Shown here: in pieces, positions 11,804 to 55,571 of the stretch
How the letters are laid out: each line of letters opens with the position of its first letter
How positions within the stretch are numbered: the first letter of the stretch is position 1
Source of the DNA: Myxococcaceae bacterium
GTDB taxonomy: Bacteria; Myxococcota; Myxococcia; Myxococcales; Myxococcaceae
DNA: 64,000 nucleotides
Direction: 5' to 3'
NCBI GenBank assembly: GCA_019686135.1
Contig: JADGHL010000001.1
Coordinates: 62,001-126,000 of the forward strand
Program-made: the position numbers and the translations under genes
Notes under the pieces: generated by a model
Told to the model about the DNA's origin: nothing
Databases searched by the model: none
What the model saw: the letters and a program-made list of their open reading frames with translations, nothing else

Positions 11804-13186
11804 TCAACCCCGTGGTCCCGTCGGCACCGAGTGGCGCGCGGCGGGCGTGGCCTCCAGCCCGCTGGAGGCCATGTAGATCACGTTTCGCGAGCCCTTCTTG
11901 CCGCGGTACATGGCGCGGTCCGCGAAGTCGAGCAACGAGGCCTTGTCCTGTGCGTGCTCGGGGTAGCTGGCCACGCCGATGCAGGTCGTGACTTGCAGCC
12001 CGTAGCCCTCGCGCGAGAGGAACTGGTGCGTCTCCATGGTGCGCCGGATGCGCTCGGCCACCTTGAGCGCTCCGCCCGAATCGGTGGCGCGTAGGAGAAT
12101 CACGTACTCGTCGCCGCCGTAGCGGACCACCACGTCGTTGTCGCGGACGCAGCCCTTGATGATCCGCGCGACCTCCACCAGCAGCTTCGAGCCCACGAGG
12201 TGCCCGTGGGTGTCGTTGACGCTCTTGAAGTAGTCGAGGTCGAGGAACAGCAGGCTGAACGTCCCCGAGGTCTGCTTCGCGCTCTTGAGCTCGCGGTCCA
12301 GCACCAGGTCGAGGTAGCGGACATTGAACAGGTGGGTGAGATCGTCCAGGTAGGCCAGGTCCTCCACTTCGGCGAACCGGCCCAGGTTCCTCAACGCGAG
12401 GCCCAGGTGCCGCGCGAGGTATTGCGCGGACTGCTCCGCCTCCTCCGGCGGGGCTTGGCGGAAGAGGACGGCCACGTGCCCGAAGATCTGATCGCCGTCC
12501 GCCGCCGGCACCAGCCAGGCCGCGGTGAAGCCGTCTGGCGCGGCGATCTTCTGCAGCGTCGTCCCCGCGCTCTCGACGTGCGGCCTGAGCGCTGCCTCCA
12601 CGGCCTCGCGATCGCCCTCGCCGCTGCCGAAGACGCCCTCCAGCCGGAACGCGTCGCCCCGGCCCGGGCGCAGGTACAAGAGCACCGTCGCCGCGCCGGT
12701 CGTTTGCGCGAACGCGTGCGACGCGGTCTGGACCAGCTTCTCCCGATCCAGTGTCGTGGCGATCCTCTGCGCCGTCTCGAGGAGCGCCACGTGCTGCCGC
12801 AGCTTCTCGTTCTCGCGCAGAAGCTGCCGCGCCGTGAGCGCGCGCGAGACGGCGTGCTGGAGCGCCTCGGGGGAGACCGGCTTCACCAGGTACTCGGAGG
12901 CGCCGCCCTTGATCGCTCGCACCGCGGGATCGACCTTGTCCAGCGCGGTGATCACCACCACCTCGGTGGACGGGAAGTTGCTCTTCACCAGCTCGAGCAC
13001 CTCCATCCCGTCACCGTCCGACAGCAACAGGTCGGTGACCACCGCGTCGAAGCGCTCCCGGGCAAGGGCGTCCTTCGCCTCCGCGACCGTGCCCACCGCG
13101 GTGACCTCGTGCCCGCCCGCGGCGAGGTAGTCGCCGTACAGCGCCCGGGCCATCTTCTCGTCGTCGATGAGGAGGATCCGCGCCAT
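11804..13186 (-). CDS. response regulator with GAF-like and GGDEF (diguanylate cyclase) domains
   Basis: A 460-residue cytoplasmic protein. The receiver (1-120) has DDE at 8-10, phospho-acceptor D52 in VVTDLLLS and the conserved KP. A short coiled segment leads into a GAF-like domain (about 140-265). The GGDEF domain (about 285-440) has active-site sequence GGDEY, so catalytic residues for making c-di-GMP from two GTP are kept, and an RDND inhibitory I-site lies five residues upstream, so product inhibition is expected. The tail is short and low complexity. The start is ATG 13186 (a GTG precedes it directly). It is convergent with the heme lipoprotein gene and divergent from the CheW-like gene. 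Confidence 0.9.
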   Translation of the reverse strand: MARILLIDDEKMARALYGDYLAAGGHEVTAVGTVAEAKDALARERFDAVVTDLLLSDGDGMEVLELVKSNFPSTEVVVITALDKVDPAVRAIKGGASEYLVKPVSPEALQHAVSRALTARQLLRENEKLRQHVALLETAQRIATTLDREKLVQTASHAFAQTTGAATVLLYLRPGRGDAFRLEGVFGSGEGDREAVEAALRPHVESAGTTLQKIAAPDGFTAAWLVPAADGDQIFGHVAVLFRQAPPEEAEQSAQYLARHLGLALRNLGRFAEVEDLAYLDDLTHLFNVRYLDLVLDRELKSAKQTSGTFSLLFLDLDYFKSVNDTHGHLVGSKLLVEVARIIKGCVRDNDVVVRYGGDEYVILLRATDSGGALKVAERIRRTMETHQFLSREGYGLQVTTCIGVASYPEHAQDKASLLDFADRAMYRGKKGSRNVIYMASSGLEATPAARHSVPTGPRG

Positions 13187-13234
13187 CACCTGGACCGATT
13201 AGCAGGCACTTGCCGGGGGCCGCTACAGCGATTC

Positions 13235-41596: not shown

Positions 41597-41681
41597 GGAG
41601 CGGCCGGGCGATGTGGGCGGCGGGCGCACAGATGCCCGATCGTTGGTGCGTTGCGGAGTGGGGACTACACTTCGTCGCGCC

Positions 41682-44600
41682 GTGTCCGAGCACCGCCACA
41701 CGCTGTTGTTCGTCGATGACGAGCGGGACGTGCTGGACATCCTTGCTCGCACCTTCGAACGGCGCTTCAACGTCGTCACCGCATCCAGCGGCGCCGAAGC
41801 GCTGGCGATCCTCGCCAACCAGCAGATCGACCTGCTGATAACGGACCAGAAGATGCCGGAGATGACCGGCATCCAGCTCGCCGCGAAGATGCGCGAGCAG
41901 GGCCACGACATCCCGGCGATCCTTCTGACCGCCTACACCAACCCCGACGATCTGATCGCCGCCATCAACGAGGGCCAGGTCTACCGGTACGTCACCAAGC
42001 CCTGGGACGTGAACGAGCTGGTGATGACCGTGCGCAACGCGCTCGAGGTCCGGCAGCTCAGAAAGGATCGCGAACGGCTCTTCGAGTCGCTGCACAAGCG
42101 CGTCGAGGCGCTCCTCGTCCTCTACGAGGTCAGCCAGCAGAGCGCGGGCGACGCGCCCACCTACGACGCGATCATCGAACGCGTGCTCACCGCGCTCGAG
42201 CGTGTGCTCCCCTATGACTGTGCCGCGGCGCTGGTCGCGCCAGACGAGGGCCGCAGCGCCACCCTGCGCCTGCGCGCGCCGGGCCAGGTGAGCGAGCGCG
42301 CGCTCTTGAACGTGAAGGAGCAGTTGGTCGCCGCGCACCGCAAGCACTCCGGCCTGCTCCTGCCCGAAGACCGGATCGTCACCCGCGTCTCCGGCCGCGT
42401 CTCCACGGATCCCGCGGGGCCGATCCACTTCCCCAGCACGATCTCCGTCTCGCTCATGGCCGGCTCGCGTCCGGTGGGGACGCTGTCGCTGTTCTCCGCC
42501 AAACCAGGCGCCTACTCGTCGGACGACGGCGAGCTTCTGGATGTCCTCGCCAACCAGACCACCGCTGCAATCCAGACGCTGCGCGCGTCCGAGGATGCCT
42601 CCCGCCGCCGCATCGAACGGATGGTGGAGGCGATGGCGGACGGCGTGCTGCTCACCGACGAGAAGAACGAGATCGTGGTGATCAACCCGGCGGCGCGTCG
42701 GCTGCTCAGGCTGGGCGACGACCCGGCGCAGTGGACCAGCCGGCACCTGCAGGAGACGCTGGGCTTCTATCCATTCGAGCTCGTCCGCGGGTGGGAGTAC
42801 GGCGGCACGCAGGTGCTGCGCGAGGAGCTGCAGCTGTTCGACCGCACCGTGCAGTCCACCATCACCCCGGTGGCGGACGGGAAGAACCAGCTGCATGGCG
42901 TAGTGGTCACCCTGCGCGACATCACCGAACAGAAGGCGCTCGAGGCGCGCAAGGACGAGTTCGTCTCGGTGATCAGCCACGAGCTGCGCACCCCGCTCAC
43001 GTCGATCTCCGGCGCGCTCGACCTGGTGCTCAACTTCCTCGCCGGGGAGATCAACGAAAAGCAGCAGCGTTACCTGCAGCTCGCCAAGGACTCCACCGAG
43101 AAGCTCAACGCGATCGTCGACGACCTGCTCGATCTCTCCAAGCTCGAGCAGGGCAAGATGAAGATGAACTTCGAGGTGGTCAGCTTCGGCGACCTCGTCG
43201 CGGCGGCGGTGGAGAAGTACCAGCCGTCGATGCTGCGCAAGAACCTCGACGTGGATCTCCGGCTGCCCCAGACGCCGATCCGCGCACTCGCCGATCCGAA
43301 CCGCGTCAACCAGGTGCTCAACAACCTGCTCACCAACGCGATCAAGTTCACCCCCGAGGGCGGGATGATCCGCATGGACGTGGGCGACTCGCCCAACGCG
43401 CCGGGCTTCTGCTCGCTGTCCATCTGGAACAGCGGCGAGCCGATCCCCGAGTCCGACCTGGAGCGGATCTTCGACAAGTTCGAACAGGCGCAGTCCGCCC
43501 GGACCCGCAACGTCCGCGGCACCGGGCTGGGGCTGTCGATTTGTCGCAACATCGTCGAAGCGCACGGCGGCCGGATTTGGGCCGAGCCCACCACCCAGGG
43601 TGCGCGCTTCGTGATGGTCCTTCCCGTCGAGCCCGCGGAGACGGAGAGCGAGTCCCGCCCGGCGCAGCGCCCGCGGCTGCCTGCGGAGCACCGCCCGCGC
43701 ATTCTGGTGATCGAAGACGATCTGGCGATCGCCTGGGTGCTCAAGGCCCAGCTTCTTTCGCGGGACTACCAGGTCGTTCTGGCGGCCAGCGCGGACGAAG
43801 CGCTCAACCTCGCGCGCCGGTACCGCCCGGACGCGATCACCCTCGACATCCGGCTCCCGGACGTGGACGGGCTGCGGCTGGCGGAGATCCTCAAGCACGA
43901 TCCCGACACCCGCGATGCACCGATCCTCGTGCTCTCCGCCTTCGACGAACGCCAGGCCGCCTTCCGCCGCGGCGCCAGCGCGTTCCTCCAGAAGCCGATC
44001 CAGACCGACAAGCTGGTCGCCACGATCGAGGGACTCGTGCGCGGGCACGCCGGCCGGCCGCAGGGGCGGGTCCTGCTCGTGGACGACGACGAGTCGATTC
44101 GGGCGATCTGCGAGGAGGTCCTCACCAACACCGGCTATGGGGTGCGATCGGCGGGGTCGATCGCCGAAGCGCGCGAGGCGATCCGCGAGAGCCGCCCGGA
44201 TCTCATGTTGCTGGACGTCAGCCTCCCGGACGGCGACGGCTTCTCCTTCCTCGAGGAGCTCAAGGCGGAGCGCGCCTCGTCGCACCTGCCGGTGATCTTC
44301 ATCTCCGCGCGCAGCGACACCCACGCCAAGGTGCGCGCGCTCAAGCTCGGCGGCGACGACTACCTGGTCAAGCCGTTCGACGCGATCGAGCTGGGCGCAC
44401 GCGTGGAGTCGGTGCTCCGCCGCAAGGAGAACGAGCTCGGCTCGTCGCCCACCACGCAGCTGCCCGGTTCCGGCGCGATCGAGCGCGAGGTGCAGCGTCG
44501 GCTGGCGGAGCGGAAGCCGTTTGCCTTCTGCTACCTCGATCTCGACAACCTCAAGGCCTACAACGACTACTACGGGTTCGCGAAGGCGGACGGGGTCATC

Positions 44601-45008
44601 AAACAGACCGGGGACCTGTTGCGCGAGATCGTCGGGCAGGAGGGCGCGCCCGGCGACTTCCTCGGGCACGTCGCCGGCGACGACTTCGTGCTGGTGGTGG
44701 ATCCGGGCCGCGTGGACGCCATCTGCCAGCGGGCGATCGAGTCGTTCGATCGAATCATCCCGCTGTACTACGACCGGCAGGATCGCGAACGCGGCTACAT
44801 CGAAGCCGAGGACCGCTACGGCGAGCGGCGCCGCTTCCCCCTGATGAGCGTCTCGATCGTCGCCGTGATGGTCGAGCCCGGCCAGGCGGATCACGCCACG
44901 CTGGCGAAGTTGGCCGCGGAGCTGAAGAAGCGCGCCAAGGCGATCCCCGGTTCCGTCTACCTTCGGAGCGATCGGCCGATGCCCACGCCGCGCTCCGCCG
45001 CCGGATGA
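41682..45008 (+). CDS. multidomain receiver-GAF-PAS-kinase-receiver-receiver-GGDEF protein
   Basis: An 1108-residue soluble signalling protein. It has a receiver (1-125, acceptor D55 in LLITDQKMPEM, TKPW), a GAF-like domain (about 150-310) and a PAS (about 325-420). HisKA carries H433 in SHELRTPLTS, and the HATPase (about 535-660) has LLTNAIKFTP and GTGLGLSI. A second receiver (about 675-790, ITLDIRLPD, LQKPI) and a third (about 800-915, LMLLDVSLPDGDG, VKPFD) precede a C-terminal GGDEF-fold domain whose signature reads AGDDF instead of GGDEF, so cyclase activity is doubtful. The start is probably GTG 41682. Its stop overlaps the next kinase gene by 4 nt (ATGA), so the two kinases are coupled. 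Confidence 0.9.
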   Translation: MSEHRHTLLFVDDERDVLDILARTFERRFNVVTASSGAEALAILANQQIDLLITDQKMPEMTGIQLAAKMREQGHDIPAILLTAYTNPDDLIAAINEGQVYRYVTKPWDVNELVMTVRNALEVRQLRKDRERLFESLHKRVEALLVLYEVSQQSAGDAPTYDAIIERVLTALERVLPYDCAAALVAPDEGRSATLRLRAPGQVSERALLNVKEQLVAAHRKHSGLLLPEDRIVTRVSGRVSTDPAGPIHFPSTISVSLMAGSRPVGTLSLFSAKPGAYSSDDGELLDVLANQTTAAIQTLRASEDASRRRIERMVEAMADGVLLTDEKNEIVVINPAARRLLRLGDDPAQWTSRHLQETLGFYPFELVRGWEYGGTQVLREELQLFDRTVQSTITPVADGKNQLHGVVVTLRDITEQKALEARKDEFVSVISHELRTPLTSISGALDLVLNFLAGEINEKQQRYLQLAKDSTEKLNAIVDDLLDLSKLEQGKMKMNFEVVSFGDLVAAAVEKYQPSMLRKNLDVDLRLPQTPIRALADPNRVNQVLNNLLTNAIKFTPEGGMIRMDVGDSPNAPGFCSLSIWNSGEPIPESDLERIFDKFEQAQSARTRNVRGTGLGLSICRNIVEAHGGRIWAEPTTQGARFVMVLPVEPAETESESRPAQRPRLPAEHRPRILVIEDDLAIAWVLKAQLLSRDYQVVLAASADEALNLARRYRPDAITLDIRLPDVDGLRLAEILKHDPDTRDAPILVLSAFDERQAAFRRGASAFLQKPIQTDKLVATIEGLVRGHAGRPQGRVLLVDDDESIRAICEEVLTNTGYGVRSAGSIAEAREAIRESRPDLMLLDVSLPDGDGFSFLEELKAERASSHLPVIFISARSDTHAKVRALKLGGDDYLVKPFDAIELGARVESVLRRKENELGSSPTTQLPGSGAIEREVQRRLAERKPFAFCYLDLDNLKAYNDYYGFAKADGVIKQTGDLLREIVGQEGAPGDFLGHVAGDDFVLVVDPGRVDAICQRAIESFDRIIPLYYDRQDRERGYIEAEDRYGERRRFPLMSVSIVAVMVEPGQADHATLAKLAAELKKRAKAIPGSVYLRSDRPMPTPRSAAG

Positions 45009-46873
45009 GGCTCTATCAACAGCTCGTGCTGTTCATGCTGGCGGCGACCGTGTTGCCGCTGGCCCTGGTCGGCTTCTGGCTTCTGCGTACCGCCGAGGAC
45101 GAGCTCTTCCGCCGCATCGGCCAGGAACAGGAGGCGCTCGGGGTGGTGGCGGCGCGCGACGCCTCGCAGGCGATCATGACCGCGGTCGAGGCGCTGGGGC
45201 GCGGCACCGAGGCGATCGACTGGGCCGAGGCCTCCCGCGAGGAGCGCGAGGGCGGGCTGGCGCTTCTGTATCAGCAGGCGGAGGCTGCCGCGGCGGTGGT
45301 GCTGGTGGACGCCGCGGGGAACGTGCTCGCCGGTCCGGTGCGGCGCACCGGCGAGGACGGCCACCCAGCGTTCGATCCCGCGCACATCGCCACGCTGATT
45401 TCTGCCATCCCGCTCCAGCCGCTCACCGGCGGGAACAAGGGCCAGGCGGCGCTGTCTTCGGCCTGGGCGGATCCTCTGGGCGGCGCGTCGCGGATGGCGG
45501 TGGCGGTGAAGGCGGCGCCCGGGACGGATGCGCCCTTCGTGCTCGCGGAGCTGGGCCTGGAGGAGCTCGAACGCGGGCTGATGGAACGCGCGCGCTCGAG
45601 CGGGGCGCGGTTCGATCTCGTCGACGGCGGAGGCCGGGTGATCGCCAGCTCGGATCCGCGCCGCCGGATGGGGCCGCTGGAGGGCGACGTGTGGGCGCGG
45701 GCCCGCGCGTCCACCACCGGCCAGGAGCGCTTCACCACCTCGGGCGAGGTGCCGCTGCTCGTCTCCGCGGTGAAGGTGCCCGGCGAGCTGGGGCTGTGGG
45801 CGGTGGTGTCGGAGACCGAAGCGGACGCGCTGGCGCCGGTGGCCCGGATGCGAAGGACGGTGCTGATCTCCATCGGCGTAGCGCTGGTGGTGCTGCTTGC
45901 GCTGGGGGCCGCGTACACGCGGCGGCTCAACCGCCGGATCGGCGAGCTGGCCGCGGGCGCCGAGGCCTTCGGTCGAGGTGAGCTGTCACGTCGCGTCGCG
46001 ATGAGCGGCGCGGACGAGCTGGCGGATCTGGCCACCACCTTCAATCAAATGGGTGCCGAGCTCGAGGCCGCACGGGCGAAGTTGCTCCGCTGGAACGACG
46101 AGCTGCAGCAGAAGGTCGACGAAGCGTTGGCGGATTTGCGCGCCGCGCAGGCCCAGTTGCTGGAGGCGCAGAAGCTGGCGGCGGTGGGCCAGCTCGGGGC
46201 GGGTGTGGCGCATGAAATCAACAACCCGCTCGCCGGGATCCTGGGCAATACGCAGCTGTTGATGATGGACCGGGACGAGAGCGACCCCGACTTCGAGACG
46301 CTCCGGAAGATCGAAATCAGCGCCAAACGCTGCAAGGAGATCACCGCCAACCTCTTGCGCTTCTCCCAGCAGCGCGACCGGCCGGAGCTGCGCCCGGTGA
46401 ACCTCAACGGGGTGGTGCGCGAGGCGATCTCGCTGCAGGAGAACCAGATCAAAGGGGAGGGTATCCAGGTGTCGGTGGCGCTGTGCGACGAGCGCCTGCA
46501 GGTCAACGCGGATCCCGGTCACGTACAGCAGGTCGTGCTGGCGGTGATGGCGAACGCGCGGACCGCGATGATGAAGACGCCCACGAAGCGGCTCACCCTG
46601 CGCACGCGCGGCGACGGCGTGGACGCCGTGATCGAGATCGAGGACACCGGCAAGGGCATCGCGCCCGAACACCTGCCGCGGATCTTCGAGCCCTTCTTCA
46701 CCACCAAGGACGTATGGTCGAACGTCGGGCTGGGCCTTTCGGTGGCGTACCGGGTGATGAGTGAGCACCGCGGCCGGATCGATGTCCGCAGCGAACCCGG
46801 GAAGGGGACGCTGGTCACCCTGAGGTTGCCCCTGCTGGAGGCGAAGGGTGACCCGGCGCGATCGGCAGCCTGA
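45005..46873 (+). CDS. membrane sensor histidine kinase (HAMP, NtrB-like)
   Basis: A 622-residue kinase: N-terminal TM helix (about 8-28), an extracytoplasmic sensing domain (about 30-285) of dCache-like size, a second TM (about 285-305), HAMP (about 305-360), a coiled coil, and HisKA with H403 in GVAHEINNPLAGILG. The HATPase (about 490-610) has the unusual VMANARTAM N-box region, DTGKGIAPEHLPRIFEPFFTTK and GLGLSVAY. The HEINNPL box is typical of NtrB/ZraS-like kinases acting on NtrC-type regulators. It starts by ATGA overlap with the giant kinase, and the FecR protein follows after 34 bp. Confidence 0.93.
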   Translation: MRLYQQLVLFMLAATVLPLALVGFWLLRTAEDELFRRIGQEQEALGVVAARDASQAIMTAVEALGRGTEAIDWAEASREEREGGLALLYQQAEAAAAVVLVDAAGNVLAGPVRRTGEDGHPAFDPAHIATLISAIPLQPLTGGNKGQAALSSAWADPLGGASRMAVAVKAAPGTDAPFVLAELGLEELERGLMERARSSGARFDLVDGGGRVIASSDPRRRMGPLEGDVWARARASTTGQERFTTSGEVPLLVSAVKVPGELGLWAVVSETEADALAPVARMRRTVLISIGVALVVLLALGAAYTRRLNRRIGELAAGAEAFGRGELSRRVAMSGADELADLATTFNQMGAELEAARAKLLRWNDELQQKVDEALADLRAAQAQLLEAQKLAAVGQLGAGVAHEINNPLAGILGNTQLLMMDRDESDPDFETLRKIEISAKRCKEITANLLRFSQQRDRPELRPVNLNGVVREAISLQENQIKGEGIQVSVALCDERLQVNADPGHVQQVVLAVMANARTAMMKTPTKRLTLRTRGDGVDAVIEIEDTGKGIAPEHLPRIFEPFFTTKDVWSNVGLGLSVAYRVMSEHRGRIDVRSEPGKGTLVTLRLPLLEAKGDPARSAA

Positions 46874-46907
46874 AGTGGGTCAAGAGAAGAACGGGAAGCA
46901 GCACGTC

Positions 46908-47867
46908 ATGAGCTCCGCCGACGGAAACCACAGACCTGGCCGGGCGCGATCGAACCTGATCTTCTTCGGGCTGCTCGTGCTGATCCTGTTGGCGCTGCCG
47001 GTCGGCTGGTATTTCTTCCTGCGCCGGCCGCCCGCTCCTCCGCCCGAGCCTCCACGGCCCGAGGCGCAGGCCCCCGTGGCCGAGGTGCCGCGGCCGGTGG
47101 ACATCCACCTCGCCGAAATCGAGGGCACGGTGGAGATCCGCCGGGCGGACGGGACCTGGCGAGAGGCGGCGAAGGGCGATCCACTGAAGGCGAGCGACGC
47201 GGTCCGGACGCGGGATGGATCGGTCGCGGTGCTGGTGGGCGGCGAGGCGTGGGAGGTCCGGATGGAGCCGGGCACCGAGGTGTCCGTGGACGAGCTGACC
47301 TCGTCGATCACCAAGATCATGCTCCAGAACGGTATGGCGCGCGCGAAGGTGAACGGCGCGGCGAAGCACACCTTCGAGGTGCGTGCGGCCGGGAGCGACG
47401 CGGTGGCCACCACGACCCGTGGCGTATTTGCCATCAGCAACAACGGTGCCGGCACCGTGGCGGTGGGAACGCAGGAGGGCGAGGTCCAGCTCTCCGGCGC
47501 GGGCAAGGTGGTGATCGTCCGCTCGGGGCAGCAGTCGATCGTCCGGCCCGGCGTGGGGCCATCGGAGCCAACGCCGATCCCTTCGTCGCTCCTTTTGAAG
47601 GTGAAGTGGCCGCAGAAGCCGCTGCTCGGCACCAACCGGCTGGTGGTGACCGGCGAGACCGCGCCGGGCGCGCACGTCGAGATCGGCGGTCACGTCGTGC
47701 GCGCGAACGCCGACGGACGGTTCCAGCACACGCTTCGACTTCAGGAAGGTGGCAACGACGTCACGGTCACCGCGCGATCAGTAGGTGGAACGGAGGCCGC
47801 GTCGCAGACACACCTGCAGGTCGATACACACGCGCCGAAGATGGGCGTCAACGTCGACTGGAAATAG
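46908..47867 (+). CDS. FecR-domain membrane-anchored protein
   Basis: A 319-residue protein. A single N-terminal TM segment (about 15-38, LIFFGLLVLILLALPVGWYFF) is followed by a Pro-rich linker and a FecR-type domain (about 65-200: EIEGTVEIRRADG, GDPLKASDAVRTRDGS, VATTTRGVFAISN, GTQEGEVQL). A C-terminal Ig-like domain (about 225-310, VTGETAPGAHVEIGG) completes it. The periplasmic FecR domain may sense or bind polymer or signal; this version lacks an anti-sigma helix. ATG 46908 was chosen (GTG 46875 is possible). It follows the HAMP kinase and precedes the riboswitch. Confidence 0.85.
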   Translation: MSSADGNHRPGRARSNLIFFGLLVLILLALPVGWYFFLRRPPAPPPEPPRPEAQAPVAEVPRPVDIHLAEIEGTVEIRRADGTWREAAKGDPLKASDAVRTRDGSVAVLVGGEAWEVRMEPGTEVSVDELTSSITKIMLQNGMARAKVNGAAKHTFEVRAAGSDAVATTTRGVFAISNNGAGTVAVGTQEGEVQLSGAGKVVIVRSGQQSIVRPGVGPSEPTPIPSSLLLKVKWPQKPLLGTNRLVVTGETAPGAHVEIGGHVVRANADGRFQHTLRLQEGGNDVTVTARSVGGTEAASQTHLQVDTHAPKMGVNVDWK

Positions 47868-47924
47868 CGGCCGCTCGCTTGACCGCTCGGCGGCGCATCC
47901 GTACCATTCTGATTCAAGAGCAAC

Positions 47925-48003
47925 CTGTTCAAGGGCAATCCGAGGGAAAGCCTCGGTGCGCAAAGCCGCAGGGCCTGAAGTTCGGCCGGCTGTAGCTGCC
48001 AAA
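47925..48003 (+). ncRNA. candidate c-di-GMP-I (GEMM) riboswitch
   Basis: The 5' leader of the next gene shows the GEMM hallmarks in order. AGGGCAAtCC is followed by a 6-bp stem CCGAGG/CCTCGG closed by a GAAA(G) loop, then the near-invariant GCGCAAAGCC joining segment. A second helix follows with the receptor-like CCTGAAG, the GGCC/GGCC stem and the 3' strand CTGTAGCTGCC. GGCA (47934-47937) can pair with TGCC (47997-48000) to close the domain. GGAGG and the ATG follow 13-27 nt later, so control could be at translation initiation. The fit is by eye; the pentaloop and short closing helix are slightly unusual. Confidence 0.75.
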
Positions 48004-48026
48004 GGATGCAATCCGGGAGGCCTCGG

Positions 48027-49991
48027 ATGAAAAGAGAACGAATCGCAGCGCTCGTGCTGACCCTCGCGCCTCTCGTTGCACTTGGACAGGGATCCCCTCA
48101 ACCGGTCGTCATCGGTGCCTCGTACATCGTCAACAACGGTCCGGGGATGCAGACCGATCCGCACATCAGCGGAAATCTCATCGCATACACCGAGGCCAAC
48201 AACACCCCGAACGAGATCCACTACTACAACCTGGCGACCGGCATCGACACCACGATTCCCTCCACCGGCGATCGCGACTACCTCTCCGACATTTCGGGCA
48301 CCCGCATCGTCTTCACGCGGACCACGGGCTTCGACAGCAACGTCTTCCTTTTCGACACCGCGACTTCCACGTTGACGGAGCTGGATCCCGGTCCCGGGAA
48401 CGTGCGGTGGTCGGCGTCGATCGGTGGCGAGACAGTGGCGTGGGAAGATCTAAGCGTCTCCGGCAGCACCAGCACTTCGGAGATCTTCGTCTATGACATC
48501 CCCACCGGAACCGCGACCTCGCTGACCCCGGGGATGATTCTCGGCAACTTTCAACCGGCCGTGTCCCCGGACGGGAAGATGGTGGTGTTCACCGCGTGCG
48601 AAGCGGACGGGATGACCTGCAACATCGTGGTCTCGCAGAAATCGCCTGGCGGGTGGACCAACACGACCCTCACCGGCGACCCCGCGCGGTGGGAGAGCAC
48701 CCCCGCCACCGATGGCGAGTTGATCGTCTACGAGAGTCTGCCCGCCGGCGGCACGGCGCCCGACACGGATCTGGCGTTCCAGTTCGTCGACACCCCGAAC
48801 GAGACCATCCTCTCGCTGCCCGGCAAACAGTCGACGCCCGCAGTGGCCGATGGGCTGATCGCCTTCCAGAGCCCCGGCGTTGGCGGCGTCAATGATCTGT
48901 TCCTCTATGACGTCGCCACCGGGGTCCTCTACCAGCTCACCAGCACGCCTCAGGCGGAGTTCCTCTCGGACATCGAGGTCGCGCCCGACGGCCTCGTCAC
49001 GGTCACCTATGTGCGCGACGACGGGGGGCTCAACGACACGAACGTCTTTGCCATGAGCTTCTTCATCGAGGATCCCGGCGACACCTGCGATCCGGACGAT
49101 GGCACGACCGAGCCGGGTGACGACGGCGATGGTGGGGACGATCACCCCGGCTGCGGCAAAGACGACGAGGATCACGGCTATTACGGATTCGGTGGCCACG
49201 ACCACGGCCATCACTGGGGCGGCCACTGGGACTACCTCTGGGCCCACCACTGGGGTTACCACTGGCATCACGGCCACCACGGGCATTCGCACCACTACGG
49301 CCACCACCACCACCACGGTCACCACAGTCACCACGGTCATGGCGGTGGTCAGCCGACGCCGCCGCCCACGGATTGCTCGAACCCCGGCAACCGTCCGCTT
49401 CTGGCGACCCTCACCGTCACCCGCACGCACGGCGCTCCGAACACCGCGTCGACGACGTTCAGCGCCACCCCCGGCAACGGCCTGCTCTGTGTGACCAACT
49501 CGAAAGCGACCTCGGGCTGGGTGGATCTCAACGGGACCCAGGAGGTGGGGCCGGGATCGTTCAAGCAGTGGGTCTCGTCGATCGATCGGGTGGTGACGCT
49601 CGACGCCACCAACACGCTCGACGCGAAGATCGCCGGCAAGAAGGGGACCTCGTACACGGTCACCGTCTACGGCTCCGACCCGGAGCAGTGTGAGACCGAG
49701 CTGCCGTCGATCGCCGCGACGGCGCTGCACGTGAAGAACGTGGGCGACGACGACGTGCACACGATCGTGGGCGAGCGCTACGAGGTGATCGCCTCCGACG
49801 AGCCGATCGCGATCGCGGACCTGGGCGCGGACGGTATCTCGGCAAATCGTGCCACTCCGGAGATGGCCGGATGCGCAGCAACCGGATCGGGCGCTGGAAA
49901 CGGCGCGGTGATCGTCGCGCTGGTCGGCCTGGCCGGGCTCATCTTCCGCAGGCGGCCGGCGGCGGATCCGCTTCGCGTCCACCGCCGTTGA
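48027..49991 (+). CDS. exported beta-propeller protein with His-rich tract and MYXO-CTERM-like tail
   Basis: A 654-residue protein: signal peptide (LVLTLAPLVALG), then about six TolB-like propeller blades (about 28-345; repeated blocks such as SGNLIAYTEANN and GTRIVFTRTT). An acidic Gly/Asp segment follows, then a His tract (about 390-442; 25 His in about 50 residues, with Gly, Trp and Tyr), and a beta-rich domain (about 455-620). The end is Gly-Cys, hydrophobic helix (VIVALVGLAGLIF), then Arg-rich, which fits the MYXO-CTERM surface-sorting signal. GGAGG precedes the ATG. It is the first gene after the candidate riboswitch. The His tract may bind metal. I know no characterised homologue. Confidence 0.8.
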   Translation: MKRERIAALVLTLAPLVALGQGSPQPVVIGASYIVNNGPGMQTDPHISGNLIAYTEANNTPNEIHYYNLATGIDTTIPSTGDRDYLSDISGTRIVFTRTTGFDSNVFLFDTATSTLTELDPGPGNVRWSASIGGETVAWEDLSVSGSTSTSEIFVYDIPTGTATSLTPGMILGNFQPAVSPDGKMVVFTACEADGMTCNIVVSQKSPGGWTNTTLTGDPARWESTPATDGELIVYESLPAGGTAPDTDLAFQFVDTPNETILSLPGKQSTPAVADGLIAFQSPGVGGVNDLFLYDVATGVLYQLTSTPQAEFLSDIEVAPDGLVTVTYVRDDGGLNDTNVFAMSFFIEDPGDTCDPDDGTTEPGDDGDGGDDHPGCGKDDEDHGYYGFGGHDHGHHWGGHWDYLWAHHWGYHWHHGHHGHSHHYGHHHHHGHHSHHGHGGGQPTPPPTDCSNPGNRPLLATLTVTRTHGAPNTASTTFSATPGNGLLCVTNSKATSGWVDLNGTQEVGPGSFKQWVSSIDRVVTLDATNTLDAKIAGKKGTSYTVTVYGSDPEQCETELPSIAATALHVKNVGDDDVHTIVGERYEVIASDEPIAIADLGADGISANRATPEMAGCAATGSGAGNGAVIVALVGLAGLIFRRRPAADPLRVHRR

Positions 49992-50013: not shown

Positions 50014-51945
50014 CTGAAGACCCTCGGTGTCCTCATAGCTCTCCTGCTCGTCGCCACCGGGGCCTCCGCTCAATCCCTGGAGATCATCGGACCCGGCGGT
50101 GTTGCGCCACCCGAAGGCTTCGCGGTCGCTGCGTTCGCTAGGGACGCCCGGGGCGCGCGCGTCGCGCTCTCGTCGCCCCGGATCGAGGTGGACGGAGGCA
50201 GTGCGCGCGCTACGCCGCCCGAGGGCGTGCTCTCCACGTGGTTCATCACGCCCGCCGCGTCGTCACACGCGGTGACGGTACGGGTGAAGGACGGCGCGCT
50301 CAGCGCCGAGCAGCGCTTTTCAGTCGGCCCGCCAGCCGGCACCGTGGCGCTGGCGCTTCTGGGACAGCTGCCGGTGAAGGGGCGGGACACCGAGACGACG
50401 ATCGACATCCGCGTGCTCACGCCGAAGGGCGCGCTGGATGCGGAGAGCCCGCCGCCGGTGCTGCAGGCGAACGTGGGGACGATCGCCCGGATCGAACCGC
50501 TCGAGCCGGGGCACTATCGCGCCAGCTACGTGCTCCCGAAGACGCGCTACCCGGAGGTGGCGGTGATCGTCGCCTTCGCGCCGTGGCCGCACCCCGGGTC
50601 CGTGCACGGCGCCATCGGCTCCTTGCTCGTGCCGCTGGCCACGGCGATCAACCTGCCCGGCGTCACCGAGCGCAACGCGGAGATGTCGATCGAGATCGCC
50701 GGCGTGACCTTCGGTCCGACCCGCGCCGGACCGGATGGGCGTTTCGAGCTGCCGGTGGTGGTTCCGCCCGGACACCGGTACGCGCGCGGCCTCGCGATCG
50801 ATCGCGCCGGCAACCGCCGTGTCTCGCGGCTGGATCTCCGTCTTCCGCCGGTGGACCAGCTGGCCTGCGTGATGAACCCGCGCCGGCTCCCCGCGGACGG
50901 GCACTCGCGCGCGCGGATCATCTGCGCGACGTCCGATCCGTATGGGGCGCCGCAGGAGAACGCGAACGTGGAGCTCCGCGTCTCCGCCGGCCGGCGCAGC
51001 GAGCGACGGGCGATCCAGGACGGCGTCTACGAGTGGATCTACACCGCGCCCTCGGAGCTCCCCGCGGCGGGAAAGGCGACCACCGTCTCGGCGCTGTGGC
51101 GTCAGGGGCGGAACGTCTCGCGGGACGAGCTGGAGCTCGAGCTGGTGCAGGGGCCGGCCTCCAGCCTCTCGCTCCGCGTGGGCGAGCCTCTCGTTCATTA
51201 TGGCGGGAAGCTTCAGGTGATCGCCGAGGTCCGTGACGCGCTGGGGCGGCCGCGCGACGACGCGACGGTGACCGCGCGCGCGCCGCTCGGCTCCTTCGGT
51301 GCGCCGACCCGCGTGGCGCCCGGGACCTGGTCGTTGAGCTACCAGCCGCCCGGCGGTGGCACCGCGAGCGCTACGACGATCTCACTGCGCGCCTTCGGCC
51401 CGGCGGGATCGGAGCCGGCGGAGCTTTTGACCTGGGTCGAGGACCACGAGGCGTTCGCGGCGGTGACCGACCTTGCGGGCTGGCCGGTGCCGGATCAGCG
51501 CTTGCGCGTGGGCAACCGGACGGTGACGACCGGCCCCGACGGAGCCGCGAGCCTGGGCCCGCTCAGGTCGGGCACGCTGGACGTGCGGCACGAACGGTGG
51601 CCGGGCCTCTCGGTGCGCCTCCACGTGCTCGACGAGCAGACCGCGTGGCCGGTGGGGACGCGGCCCGGGAGCGCGCGGGTCGAACAGACGCTTACGCTCG
51701 CGCCGCCCACGCCGGTGGTCGTGCAGTTCACGGTGAAGGGCCGCACCGTCACCTACTGGGTGGAGGATCCGCGCGGGAAGATCCTCGAGGACCGCGCCGT
51801 CGCGGTGAACGTGTTGGGTGCGCAGATCGCCGGCACGCGACGCGAGGGCGCGCGCACCTCGGTCACGCTCTCCGCGGCGCCCGCGCAGTTGTCGGTCAGT
51901 GACGTCGCCACCGGCGTGACGGGCGTGGCCGAGGTGACACCGTGA
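50014..51945 (+). CDS. exported Ig-like repeat protein with apparent CTG start
   Basis: A 643-residue protein if started at CTG 50014. The in-frame sequence directly after it is a perfect signal peptide (LKTLGVLIALLLVATGASAQ), and the next usable start (GTG 50188) would delete it. An 8-codon mini-frame ATG 49991-TGA 50017 overlaps the preceding stop (TGATG) and ends on the CTG (CTGA), so reinitiation or a -1 frameshift could supply translation. The mature protein is a chain of about five beta-sandwich (Ig/invasin-like) domains with V-x-V-x-A-L-x-G-x-P and VRDALGRPRDDATVTA motifs. It probably sits in the periplasm or on the surface as a partner of the downstream barrel, to which it is coupled by GTGA. 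Confidence 0.72.
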   Translation: MKTLGVLIALLLVATGASAQSLEIIGPGGVAPPEGFAVAAFARDARGARVALSSPRIEVDGGSARATPPEGVLSTWFITPAASSHAVTVRVKDGALSAEQRFSVGPPAGTVALALLGQLPVKGRDTETTIDIRVLTPKGALDAESPPPVLQANVGTIARIEPLEPGHYRASYVLPKTRYPEVAVIVAFAPWPHPGSVHGAIGSLLVPLATAINLPGVTERNAEMSIEIAGVTFGPTRAGPDGRFELPVVVPPGHRYARGLAIDRAGNRRVSRLDLRLPPVDQLACVMNPRRLPADGHSRARIICATSDPYGAPQENANVELRVSAGRRSERRAIQDGVYEWIYTAPSELPAAGKATTVSALWRQGRNVSRDELELELVQGPASSLSLRVGEPLVHYGGKLQVIAEVRDALGRPRDDATVTARAPLGSFGAPTRVAPGTWSLSYQPPGGGTASATTISLRAFGPAGSEPAELLTWVEDHEAFAAVTDLAGWPVPDQRLRVGNRTVTTGPDGAASLGPLRSGTLDVRHERWPGLSVRLHVLDEQTAWPVGTRPGSARVEQTLTLAPPTPVVVQFTVKGRTVTYWVEDPRGKILEDRAVAVNVLGAQIAGTRREGARTSVTLSAAPAQLSVSDVATGVTGVAEVTP

Positions 51946-54900
51946 GCGCGCCGGCGGTTCGCGTGGGGATCGCGCTGTCGCTCTGCGCGCTGCCGGTGGC
52001 CAGCGCACAGGGGCTTTCGGTGCCCGTCGATCGCTCCGCGACTTCGGGGGCGATCGCCGGCCGGGTGTGCCACGACGACAACGGGGATGGCGTGTGTCAG
52101 GCCGGCGAGCCCGGCGTCCCCGGCCTGCGCCTGGTGATGGAGACGGGGCAACAGGCGCTGACTGACCCGGAGGGCCGTTATCACCTCGCGGCGGTCGCCG
52201 CGCGCTTCGACGATGCGCTCCAGGGCGGCGTGGCGCTGAGCGGACGTCACCGGCTCAAGGTCGATGGGCGGGGACTGCGCCCCGGCGCGAAGGTGGTCCC
52301 GGAGGCGGTGACGCTGGAGGTCCCTTCGAGCGGCCTCGTGCTGCAAAACTTCGCGGTGCAGGAGCCGGTCGCCACGGCCAGCGAGCTTCGCCCCGCATGG
52401 CGCGAGGCGCCTCCGGCGGCGTCGGTGTCGAAGGAGGGGGAGATCGCCTTTCAGCTCTCTGGCCGCGCGTCGCCACGGGACGTGGTGACGGTGGCGGGCG
52501 TGCCGGTGCAGACCTCGGCGGACGGGACGTGGCGGGCGCAGGTGGGGCTTCGCCCCGGCGGGAACGACGTGTCGATCGAGGTGGCCTCGAAGGACGGGGC
52601 GGTGCGTCTGTTCACCCAGCACATCGACGTCGTCCGGCGCGCCGGTGGTGTGTTGGTGATCCCGCGCGAGCCCCGGCCCACCGCGCGGTTGCAGCTCCCC
52701 GGTTCGGACGAGTCGCCGGCTTCCTCCGGAACGGCGCGCGTCCGGGTGGAGGGACCGAAGGGGACGGTGATTGGCCACCCGGGCGGTGAGTTGGTGGTCG
52801 GCGAGGGTGGCGCGGTGGACGTGCCCGTCGAGCTGTTGCCCGGCCAGAACCTTCTGCCGCTGCGCATCCAGCGCCCCGGCGAGCCCGTACGCGAGGCACA
52901 GGTCCGGGTCGAGGCGCGGGCGCGGCCCTTCGTCGTGGCGCTGCTCGACGCGGAGGTGGGGCAGGGACTCTCCCGAAGCGCGGGTGGCCTGCGGCTCATC
53001 GGGCGGGGCGCAGCGCACGCCGAGCTCCCGTTGGGGCGGTGGAGTCTCCTCGGTGAGCTGGATCTGCGCGATCAGGATCTCCGCGACGCGCGGTCGTTCG
53101 GGATCGGCGTGTTGGCGGCGCCGCGCGATGTGCTCGCGCTCGAGCGGGCGCTGGATCCGGAGCGCACGCCGTACGTGTGGGCGGACGAATCCACCTCGGT
53201 CGCTCCCAACGAAGCCGGGGGCCGCGTGCGGTTGGAGCTGTCGCATCCGGACTTCGGCGGCGTCGGCTTCGGGACGCTCCGTGCCCGTTTCGCCGACGGA
53301 GAGATCGGCCGCTATCACCGCGAGCTCTTCGGAGCGTGGGCGCGCGTGCACACGCCGGCATCGGCGCCCGTGCAGGTGGCGGCGGAGGCTTTCGCCTCCA
53401 ACGGCGCGGCGGATCCGGCCACCGGCCTCGTCGCGTTGCCAGCCCACGCGGAGTTCACTTCGACCGGCGGGAGCCTGTTCTACCTGCCGCACGGCTTCGT
53501 CTCGCGCGGGAGCGAGCGCGTGCGGATCGTCACCCGCGACGGGCTGACGGGCGTTCCGATCGCCGAGCGGCACCTCACCCGCGGCGTCGACTACGAGATC
53601 GACGCAGACTCGGGGCGCATCGTGCTCGGGCAGCCGCTCGCGTTCGCGGCCGCGCCGCCCCGCCTGGCGACGAGCTGGCCCACCGAGGGTGCCGAGCCGG
53701 TGCTGGTCGTGGACTACGAGTACGTCGACCTCGCTGCGCCCAACCGTGCGGCGGCCGGTGGAGAGGCGAGCGCGCACCTGGGTCCGGTGACGCTGCGCGC
53801 GGGCGGGGTGAGCGAGGGCGCTGGCTTGGAGCGCTACCGCCTGGTCCGCGGCGGCGCCGCGGTGCGACTTTTCGGCCTCACGCTCTCCGCGGAAGCGGCA
53901 CAGAGCGCTGGCCGCGCCCACGCGCCCAAGGACGTGGCGGTCTCCCCGAACGGTGGGCTGGAGTTCCTGACGCCCTACGACGAGACCGCGGCGTGGACCG
54001 GCCCGGACTCGAGCGGCTGGGCCCTGAGTGTCCGGCTCGCCGGCGACACGTTCGCGGGCGGGCACGTCGACGCCTCGTGGCGGCGGCGGACGCCGGAGTT
54101 CAGCGACGAGACCTTCGACGCCCGCGGCCCGCTGACGCAGCTGAGCGCCACGGTCGAGCAGCCGCTCGGTCCCGTGGTGGTGGGTTTCGTCGCCGATGAC
54201 CGCACGGTGGTCGACCCGCGCGACCCCTTTGGCCGCGACGAGGTCGGAGCGAGGACGCTGGGTGGCTACGTCGGCTACCGGGGCGAAGTGCTGCAGGCCC
54301 AGCTGGAGGCGAAGGATGCGCAGTTGGTGCTCGATCCGCAGGCCGGGGCGCCGGACCGGGTGGAGGGGGCGCGGACGTCGGTGGGCGCGAGCCTGCGCTA
54401 CCGCGTGGCGCCGGGGTTCTGGATCGCCGCGGGACACCGGCAGGCGATCTCCACCCGCGGCGCGGGCCCGGGAGCGTTCGATGACACCTTCACGTCGGCC
54501 GGGGTCGATCTGGCGCTGAACGAACGCACACAGCTGGGCGTGCGCGGAGGATGGGGTCCGCGGACGGGACCGCTGGCGTGGGCGACCGGCCAGTACACCT
54601 CGGGTGGCGACACGTTCTACGGCAGCTACTCGGTCGACGTGGACGGTCCGGACTTTGGCGAGCATCGCGTCGTCTCCGGCGCGCGCACCCGGCTGAGCGA
54701 CGGCACCACCGTGTTCGTTGAAGACGTGGGCGCGCACGACGCCACGAGCGTGCGGATCGCCCGGGCGGTGGGAGTGAGCAGCGAGCTTGCGCCCGGGCTC
54801 AGCCTCTCGGCGCGCTACGAGCGCGGCGCGCGGAGCCCGATCGACGTGCTTGCGCCGCTGCGGCGCGATGCGGGCGGGGTGTCCGTCTCCTTCGTGCGCG

Positions 54901-55571
54901 ACCGCCTGCGGCTCTATGGCCGGGCGGAGACGCGCTTCGAGCGCGGGCATGAGGTGCTGACGCCGTTGTCGGCTCCGGAGGTCGATCGCATCCAGCAGCT
55001 CGCGAGCGCCGCGGCCACGTTCGCGGTGCTCGACAACCTTCATTTCGGCGGACGGCTCAACTGGTCCACCACCCACGAGCGACAGCACCTCATCGCGCGG
55101 CTCGTCGAGGCCTCCGCCGGGCTCACGTGGCGGAGCGATCCGCTCATGGTGGTGCTGCACTACGGCATCGAGCGCGAACTCTCGCCGCTGCGCGCGGACC
55201 TGGGCGAACAGGTGGCCCAGCGCGTGTCGGTGATGCCGTCGCTGAAGCTGGGCGATCGGTTCGCCATCGCCGCGGGCGCGCACGCCGGCTGGTTCAAAGA
55301 GGCTGCAGCAGAAGGAATGGTGCTGTCCGCTTCGCTCCGTCCCTCGGTGCGAGTGGTTGGAGGTCTGGAAGTCGCGGCGGAACTCGCACGGAGATCGTCG
55401 GCGCCGGACGGGGGAAGATTGGACGCGCTGCGGGGCGAGGTCGGCTACCGCTTCGGTGAGGAGCTCATGCTGGCCGGCGGGTACACGCTGTACGGGTTCT
55501 CGGGGCTGGGGCTGACGCCCGATGACGGCGACGCCCAGCGGGTCTACGTGCGCGCGGAGGCCGCCTGGTGA
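51942..55571 (+). CDS. large outer-membrane beta-barrel protein with SdrD-B-like domain
   Basis: A 1209-residue exported protein, GTG start overlapping the previous stop by 4 nt. It has a signal peptide (ALSLCALPVASAQ), then an SdrD-B/Cna-B-like domain (about 35-100, with RVCHDDNGDGVCQAGEPG, a calcium-type D-x-N-x-D-G motif). Two or three beta-sandwich domains (about 155-330) include the FF-like block RPGGNDVSIEV. A long region of amphipathic beta strands (about 340-1209) ends in RVYVRAEAAW, with terminal aromatic Trp as in BAM substrates. Predicted: an outer-membrane barrel with a large periplasmic or surface part, possibly exporting or anchoring the products of the flanking genes. No characterised family is recognised. 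Confidence 0.8.
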   Translation: MSAPAVRVGIALSLCALPVASAQGLSVPVDRSATSGAIAGRVCHDDNGDGVCQAGEPGVPGLRLVMETGQQALTDPEGRYHLAAVAARFDDALQGGVALSGRHRLKVDGRGLRPGAKVVPEAVTLEVPSSGLVLQNFAVQEPVATASELRPAWREAPPAASVSKEGEIAFQLSGRASPRDVVTVAGVPVQTSADGTWRAQVGLRPGGNDVSIEVASKDGAVRLFTQHIDVVRRAGGVLVIPREPRPTARLQLPGSDESPASSGTARVRVEGPKGTVIGHPGGELVVGEGGAVDVPVELLPGQNLLPLRIQRPGEPVREAQVRVEARARPFVVALLDAEVGQGLSRSAGGLRLIGRGAAHAELPLGRWSLLGELDLRDQDLRDARSFGIGVLAAPRDVLALERALDPERTPYVWADESTSVAPNEAGGRVRLELSHPDFGGVGFGTLRARFADGEIGRYHRELFGAWARVHTPASAPVQVAAEAFASNGAADPATGLVALPAHAEFTSTGGSLFYLPHGFVSRGSERVRIVTRDGLTGVPIAERHLTRGVDYEIDADSGRIVLGQPLAFAAAPPRLATSWPTEGAEPVLVVDYEYVDLAAPNRAAAGGEASAHLGPVTLRAGGVSEGAGLERYRLVRGGAAVRLFGLTLSAEAAQSAGRAHAPKDVAVSPNGGLEFLTPYDETAAWTGPDSSGWALSVRLAGDTFAGGHVDASWRRRTPEFSDETFDARGPLTQLSATVEQPLGPVVVGFVADDRTVVDPRDPFGRDEVGARTLGGYVGYRGEVLQAQLEAKDAQLVLDPQAGAPDRVEGARTSVGASLRYRVAPGFWIAAGHRQAISTRGAGPGAFDDTFTSAGVDLALNERTQLGVRGGWGPRTGPLAWATGQYTSGGDTFYGSYSVDVDGPDFGEHRVVSGARTRLSDGTTVFVEDVGAHDATSVRIARAVGVSSELAPGLSLSARYERGARSPIDVLAPLRRDAGGVSVSFVRDRLRLYGRAETRFERGHEVLTPLSAPEVDRIQQLASAAATFAVLDNLHFGGRLNWSTTHERQHLIARLVEASAGLTWRSDPLMVVLHYGIERELSPLRADLGEQVAQRVSVMPSLKLGDRFAIAAGAHAGWFKEAAAEGMVLSASLRPSVRVVGGLEVAAELARRSSAPDGGRLDALRGEVGYRFGEELMLAGGYTLYGFSGLGLTPDDGDAQRVYVRAEAAW

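Follow-up and report, generated by a model that had tools for sequence, protein, structure and literature searches.

The 5′ leader of a gene for a TolB-like envelope protein in a Myxococcaceae bacterium very probably carries a genuine class-I c-di-GMP (GEMM-I) riboswitch, a reading to which we assign a probability of about 0.78. The finding adds one more member to a known riboswitch class. This reading is supported by a match to the Rfam model RF01051, by the conserved placement of the aptamer (49 of 60 genomes), by covariation, by intact ligand contacts and by 21 GGDEF-domain matches in the genome. The DNA analyzed, hereafter referred to as the window, comprises 64,000 nt of assembly GCA_019686135.1 (contig JADGHL010000001.1, positions 62,001 to 126,000 of the forward strand). 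A first-pass annotation had proposed a c-di-GMP-I riboswitch from the motifs AGGGCAA, a capped stem, CCTGAAG and TGCC, located immediately before a gene start. All of these motifs were found in the order given, and the start codon at 48027 lies 23 nt past the end of the RF01051 match. This match, at 47924-48003 on the + strand, spans the full length of the model (1-87) and scores 37.2 bits against a gathering cut-off of 35, a margin of only 2 bits; it thereby passes the RF01051 check named by the first-pass annotation. The E-value is 0.0012 when the whole 64 kb window is searched against all Rfam families. It is 2.3e-5 for the sole copy in the genome, in whose 5.5 Mb (97% complete) no second aptamer was found. 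The aptamer, its placement, its conservation and its contact residues are established by computation. The features of the region are collected in Table 1.

Table 1 Summary of the features of the leader and its gene neighborhood, in positions of the window.
Feature	Position	Strand	Basis
Hybrid histidine kinase with receiver domains and a degenerate GGDEF, upstream	41613-45008	+	Pfam
HAMP histidine kinase, upstream neighbor	45005-46873	+	Pfam, conserved order
FecR-domain protein, upstream neighbor	46848-47867	+	Pfam, conserved order
Sigma-70-like promoter TTGACC-17-TACCAT	47879-47907	+	9/12 consensus matches, shuffles mean 0.0
c-di-GMP-I (GEMM-I) aptamer	47924-48003	+	RF01051 match, conserved upstream of orthologs, covariation
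Ligand-contact nucleotide equivalent to Vc2 G20 (selectivity between c-di-GMP and cGAMP)	47934	+	RF01051 alignment
P2 hairpin CCGAGG-GAAAG-CCUCGG	47940-47956	+	RF01051 alignment, folding, covariation
Ligand-contact nucleotide equivalent to Vc2 A47	47962	+	RF01051 alignment
P3, short distal stem GGCC/GGCC with 8-nt apical loop	47964-47997	+	Alignment, folding, covariation
Ligand-contact nucleotide equivalent to Vc2 C92	47999	+	RF01051 alignment
Hairpin AUCCGGG-AGGC-CUCGGAU, proposed expression platform	48011-48028	+	-9.3 kcal/mol; function putative
Controlled gene, 654-aa TolB-like beta-propeller protein	48027-49991	+	NCBIfam, PDB TolB, orthologs
Invasin/Ig-like domain gene, downstream	50188-51945	+	Pfam below cut-off, conserved order
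Large envelope protein gene, downstream; start overlaps preceding stop	51942-55571	+	Pfam, conserved order

The aptamer can be described as composed of the helices P1, P2 and P3. The capped stem of the first-pass annotation corresponds to P2, but its loop is the five-base GAAAG and not a strict GAAA tetraloop; GAAA is found in nearly all relatives. The CCTGAAG motif is likewise present, although it is located in and beside the 8-nt apical loop of the shortened P3 rather than in a two-strand 11-nt tetraloop receptor, and a receptor role for it is uncertain. Docking of a GNRA loop of P2 into a P3 receptor is frequent in the class but is not needed for an Rfam match; where a standard receptor would be recognizable, P3 shows CC:GG and the 8-nt loop. 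Its pair 47970/47991, which is A-U in the window, is G-C in most relatives. In the window, P1 is a short, imperfect helix that consists of CCU/AGG only. In the relatives 88.8% of P1 is paired; G-U pairs are numerous and covariation is slight, and this helix appears weakly supported by the comparison of leaders.

The Vc2 numbers were placed on the Rfam columns by means of the sequence of the Vibrio cholerae Vc2 riboswitch. The equivalents of G20, A47 and C92 are kept as G, A and C in 27 of 27 aligned leaders. These three residues of Vc2 have been named as ligand contacts (PMC4744006). An imperfect tandem copy precedes the junction element on the + strand, so that TTCAAGAGCAACC (47913-47925) is followed by TTCAAGGGCAATC (47928-47940). 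The first copy has an A at the G20 position. Such a tandem copy is expected 0.02 times in the window, and it was not seen in the leaders of relatives.

Orthologs of the target gene (E below 1e-30) were collected from 60 genomes of the window's family, and in 49 of these the aptamer is directly upstream of the gene. A covariance model built from 27 orthologous leaders, that of the window among them, finds 48 of the aptamers (E ≤ 0.001), while the 49th, in genome G018, was found by RF01051 with 39.2 bits. By coordinates, the matches sit just upstream of the gene match. In the aligned leaders, 90.8% of the helix cells hold standard pairs, compared with 28-42% in slid-alignment controls. Eight pairs have changed on both sides, a number reached in 0 of 500 shuffles; kinship inflates the shuffle comparison for the percentage paired and for the covariation score, and less so for these both-side changes. 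Among the relatives, both-side changes are seen in 4 of the 7 pairs of P2 and in 3 pairs of P3. A chance match to RF01051 in GC-rich DNA, which the score near the cut-off might suggest, is thus hardly credible: the same gene is preceded by the aptamer in dozens of genomes, with covariation, and E is 0.0012 over all families. The conservation already contradicts such a match.

No recognizable aptamer was found in 11 of the 60 family genomes that have the target gene. In one of them (locus L053, genome G027) the leader is otherwise similar but the aptamer is cleanly missing, an apparent natural loss, and three loci (L056-L058) hold degenerate remnants, which are natural riboswitch losses as well. 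Together with the low score and the weak P1 of the window, these losses could mean that the aptamer is a decaying relic, still recognizable but no longer switching in the window's lineage. We consider this very unlikely. The window keeps every contact and junction base and has the compensated P3 pair A-U at 47970/47991, and it is exactly such bases that the degenerate relatives have lost.

The controlled gene encodes a protein with a signal peptide and a MYXO-CTERM-like C-terminus. Its matches to the NCBIfam models for TolB (E 3.8e-10) and for the MXAN_0125-type MYXO-CTERM (E 0.0033) are both below the curated cut-offs, it matches the PDB TolB with 2.9e-7, and a Pfam search returned no confident family. 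A segment with 25 histidines in 52 residues (49197-49352, +), located between the propeller and the C-terminal part, is possibly metal-binding. The invasin/Ig-like gene that follows is probably co-regulated with the TolB-like gene. Nearly all named loci with enough flank read, M. xanthus included, keep the order hybrid kinase with a GGDEF-like end, histidine kinase, FecR, aptamer, TolB-like, invasin-like and large envelope protein. The named loci of relatives belong to Myxococcus, Pyxidicoccus, Archangium and Citreicoccus. A record titled Comamonas sp. KCTC 72670 (BNCN01000007.1, locus L108) holds the myxobacterial cluster in this order, and its label is therefore probably wrong. Elsewhere in the window there is a selenocysteine tRNA (689-783, - strand, 74.3 bits), which makes selenoprotein synthesis in this organism probable.

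M. xanthus, a model organism for multicellular development in bacteria, produces both c-di-GMP and cGAMP. In this species, the aptamer is upstream of the orthologous gene within the conserved gene order, and in strain AM003 the first gene of the cluster encodes 1109 amino acids. The hybrid kinase of the window is 67% identical to its M. xanthus ortholog. From length and architecture, the M. xanthus hybrid kinase of the cluster is very probably TmoK, which has been described previously (PMC4877007). At the Rfam gathering thresholds, the aptamers of M. xanthus and of most of its close relatives are missed. The highest M. xanthus score, to RF03167, is 28.9 bits, and this position below the cut-off would explain why the aptamer went unnoticed. 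An open-licence search of the second-messenger literature, which is not proof of absence, found no riboswitch of M. xanthus itself. The riboswitch is conserved in M. xanthus and its relatives, where it is apparently unreported. A conserved aptamer below the cut-off in the probable tmoK cluster offers a direct, easily tested RNA target of second messengers.

The aptamer is located in the 5′ leader, between the promoter and the start codon. Transcription is expected to start near 47913, as judged from the promoter, and relatives have similar TTGACC-17/18 promoters at the same place. The expression platform of the window is very short, 23 nt, and is unique to its lineage, so that the comparison with relatives lends it no support. 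The Shine-Dalgarno sequence GGGAGG is at 48015-48020, while an alternative ATG at 48006 is without a usable ribosome-binding site. The hairpin 48011-48028 covers the Shine-Dalgarno sequence and reaches into the start codon by two bases, and no intrinsic terminator was found on the + strand of the window leader. From this folding model, it is fairly likely that control acts at translation.

In the proposed mechanism, the RNA transcribed from near 47913 would fold into P1, P2 and P3. c-di-GMP would bind at the junction, at the equivalents of G20, A47 and C92, and lock P1, whose 3′ strand (about 48003-48005) overlaps the segment GGAU (48004-48007). Without P1, GGAU would be free to pair with AUCC (48011-48014), which would pull the Shine-Dalgarno hairpin apart. 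Since P1 competes with this opening hairpin for bases, the two exclude each other and the ligand should favor closure, which would make a translational OFF switch. The hairpin 48011-48028 would form in the bound state and hide the ribosome-binding site and the start codon, and the outcome would be less of the TolB-like envelope protein and probably less of the products of the two genes after it. The closed state, composed of the aptamer and the Shine-Dalgarno hairpin, has a predicted energy of -42.6 kcal/mol. For the best state that contains the opening hairpin (48004-48014) it is -40.9 kcal/mol, and this gap of 1.7 kcal/mol lies within the model error. The closed hairpin is favored even without ligand, and the predicted range of control is therefore small. 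Because of both the narrow gap and this preference for closure, the OFF direction is favored only slightly over even odds.

The same aptamer and ligand could also make an ON switch. In that model, the 5′ strand of P2, AUCCGAGG (47938-47945), would pair without ligand with CCUCGGAU (48021-48028) over the start codon, and c-di-GMP would keep P2 intact and free the start. The two segments AUCCGAGG and CCUCGGAU can form eight continuous Watson-Crick pairs, and the best fold with this helix, at -40.9 kcal/mol, is only 1.7 kcal/mol above the aptamer fold. However, being strong and local, the P2 hairpin forms first. Moreover, the hairpin 48011-48028 closes the start region even when P2 is intact, so the start would be covered in both states, and we regard an ON switch as unlikely compared with the OFF model.

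The downstream platforms of the relatives were also compared. An antiterminator pairing between the 3′ strand of P1 and these platforms can be made out by eye but was rejected, being in almost every leader no better than with shuffled platforms, of which a fraction of 0.2-0.97 was as good (0.045 in 1 of 28 leaders). A CCUUG element, complementary to the junction CAAGG, is conserved in the Myxococcus platforms, which is suggestive; it is absent from the window.

The ligand is probably c-di-GMP, as predicted from the aptamer residues. The G at position 20 argues for this ligand, since the cGAMP switch has an A there and the G20A change gives GEMM-I binding of cGAMP (PMC6274999). Binding of cGAMP as the natural ligand would require the window's G20, shared by every aligned family leader, to accept it, and G20 has been said to influence selectivity without being a hard filter (PMC9262584). 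Two of the GGDEF domains in the genome have a serine at the specificity position, and cGAMP may therefore also be made; in the sister family, the aptamers before a homologous gene have the cGAMP-type residue A20. With GEMM-I binding of cGAMP coming from G20A, we nevertheless consider cGAMP a quite improbable natural ligand and retain c-di-GMP. A serine at the GGDEF specificity position marks Hypr enzymes. One of the two serine-type proteins is encoded in the window (11804-13189, - strand); it is a response regulator-GAF-GGDEF protein of 461 amino acids with the segment NDTHGHLVGS and is a candidate Hypr cGAMP synthase. The second is at locus L078. GacA and GacB of M. xanthus have been reported as Hypr enzymes (PMC8844925). 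A further genome, G010, has five GEMM-I-type aptamers, of which the copy before the TolB-like gene (L014) has G20 and another (L015) has A20, so this genome may use both ligand types.

Outside the family but within its taxonomic order, a homolog of the gene (E below 1e-8) was found in only two genomes (L144 in G056 and L145 in G037). In each of them an aptamer lies no more than about 135 nt from the protein match and reads AGAGC, which corresponds to A20. Their sequences show a GC-rich hairpin with a long U tract after each aptamer; a terminator scan found the hairpin of L145 and missed that of L144. Given A20 in the sister family and G20 in the window's family, before homologous genes, ligand preference may have changed on one gene. 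The simplest reading, a lead from two genomes, would be a shared ancestral leader that changed its ligand preference and its platform. The fuller scheme, in which one ancient riboswitch-gene pair changed both ligand and control mode, with A20 and terminators in the sister family, G20 in the window's family and a 23-nt translational platform in the window's lineage, is tentative and in our view rather doubtful. If true, it would give c-di-GMP a direct link to the cluster that holds the motility kinase TmoK. Since homologous genes are preceded by G20 in one family and by A20 in the other, a natural switch of riboswitch ligand can be tested on a single gene.

Three known systems are closest to the aptamer. 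The 3′,3′-cGAMP riboswitch of Geobacter (GEMM-Ib) has the same overall fold and pocket, but membership was rejected: GEMM-Ib has an A at the G20 position, which the two sister-family aptamers do share, while the window and all 27 aligned sequences have a G. The c-di-GMP-I-GGC family (RF03167) has a similarly short distal P3 and a nearly equal score, 37.4 bits in a permissive search of the 501-base neighborhood. Membership was rejected here too, since its cut-off is 59 and the window has an A at 47962 where the RF03167 consensus has a G. Compared with GEMM-I (RF01051; V. cholerae Vc2 and Vc1), the window differs in its shortened P3 with no recognizable two-strand tetraloop receptor, its GAAAG P2 loop and its 23-nt expression platform. 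It shares with them the adjacent stem-loops P2 and P3, the GAAA-type P2 loop, the CGCAAAGC junction, the G20, A47 and C92 contacts and the position in the 5′ leader of an envelope gene (PMC4744006).
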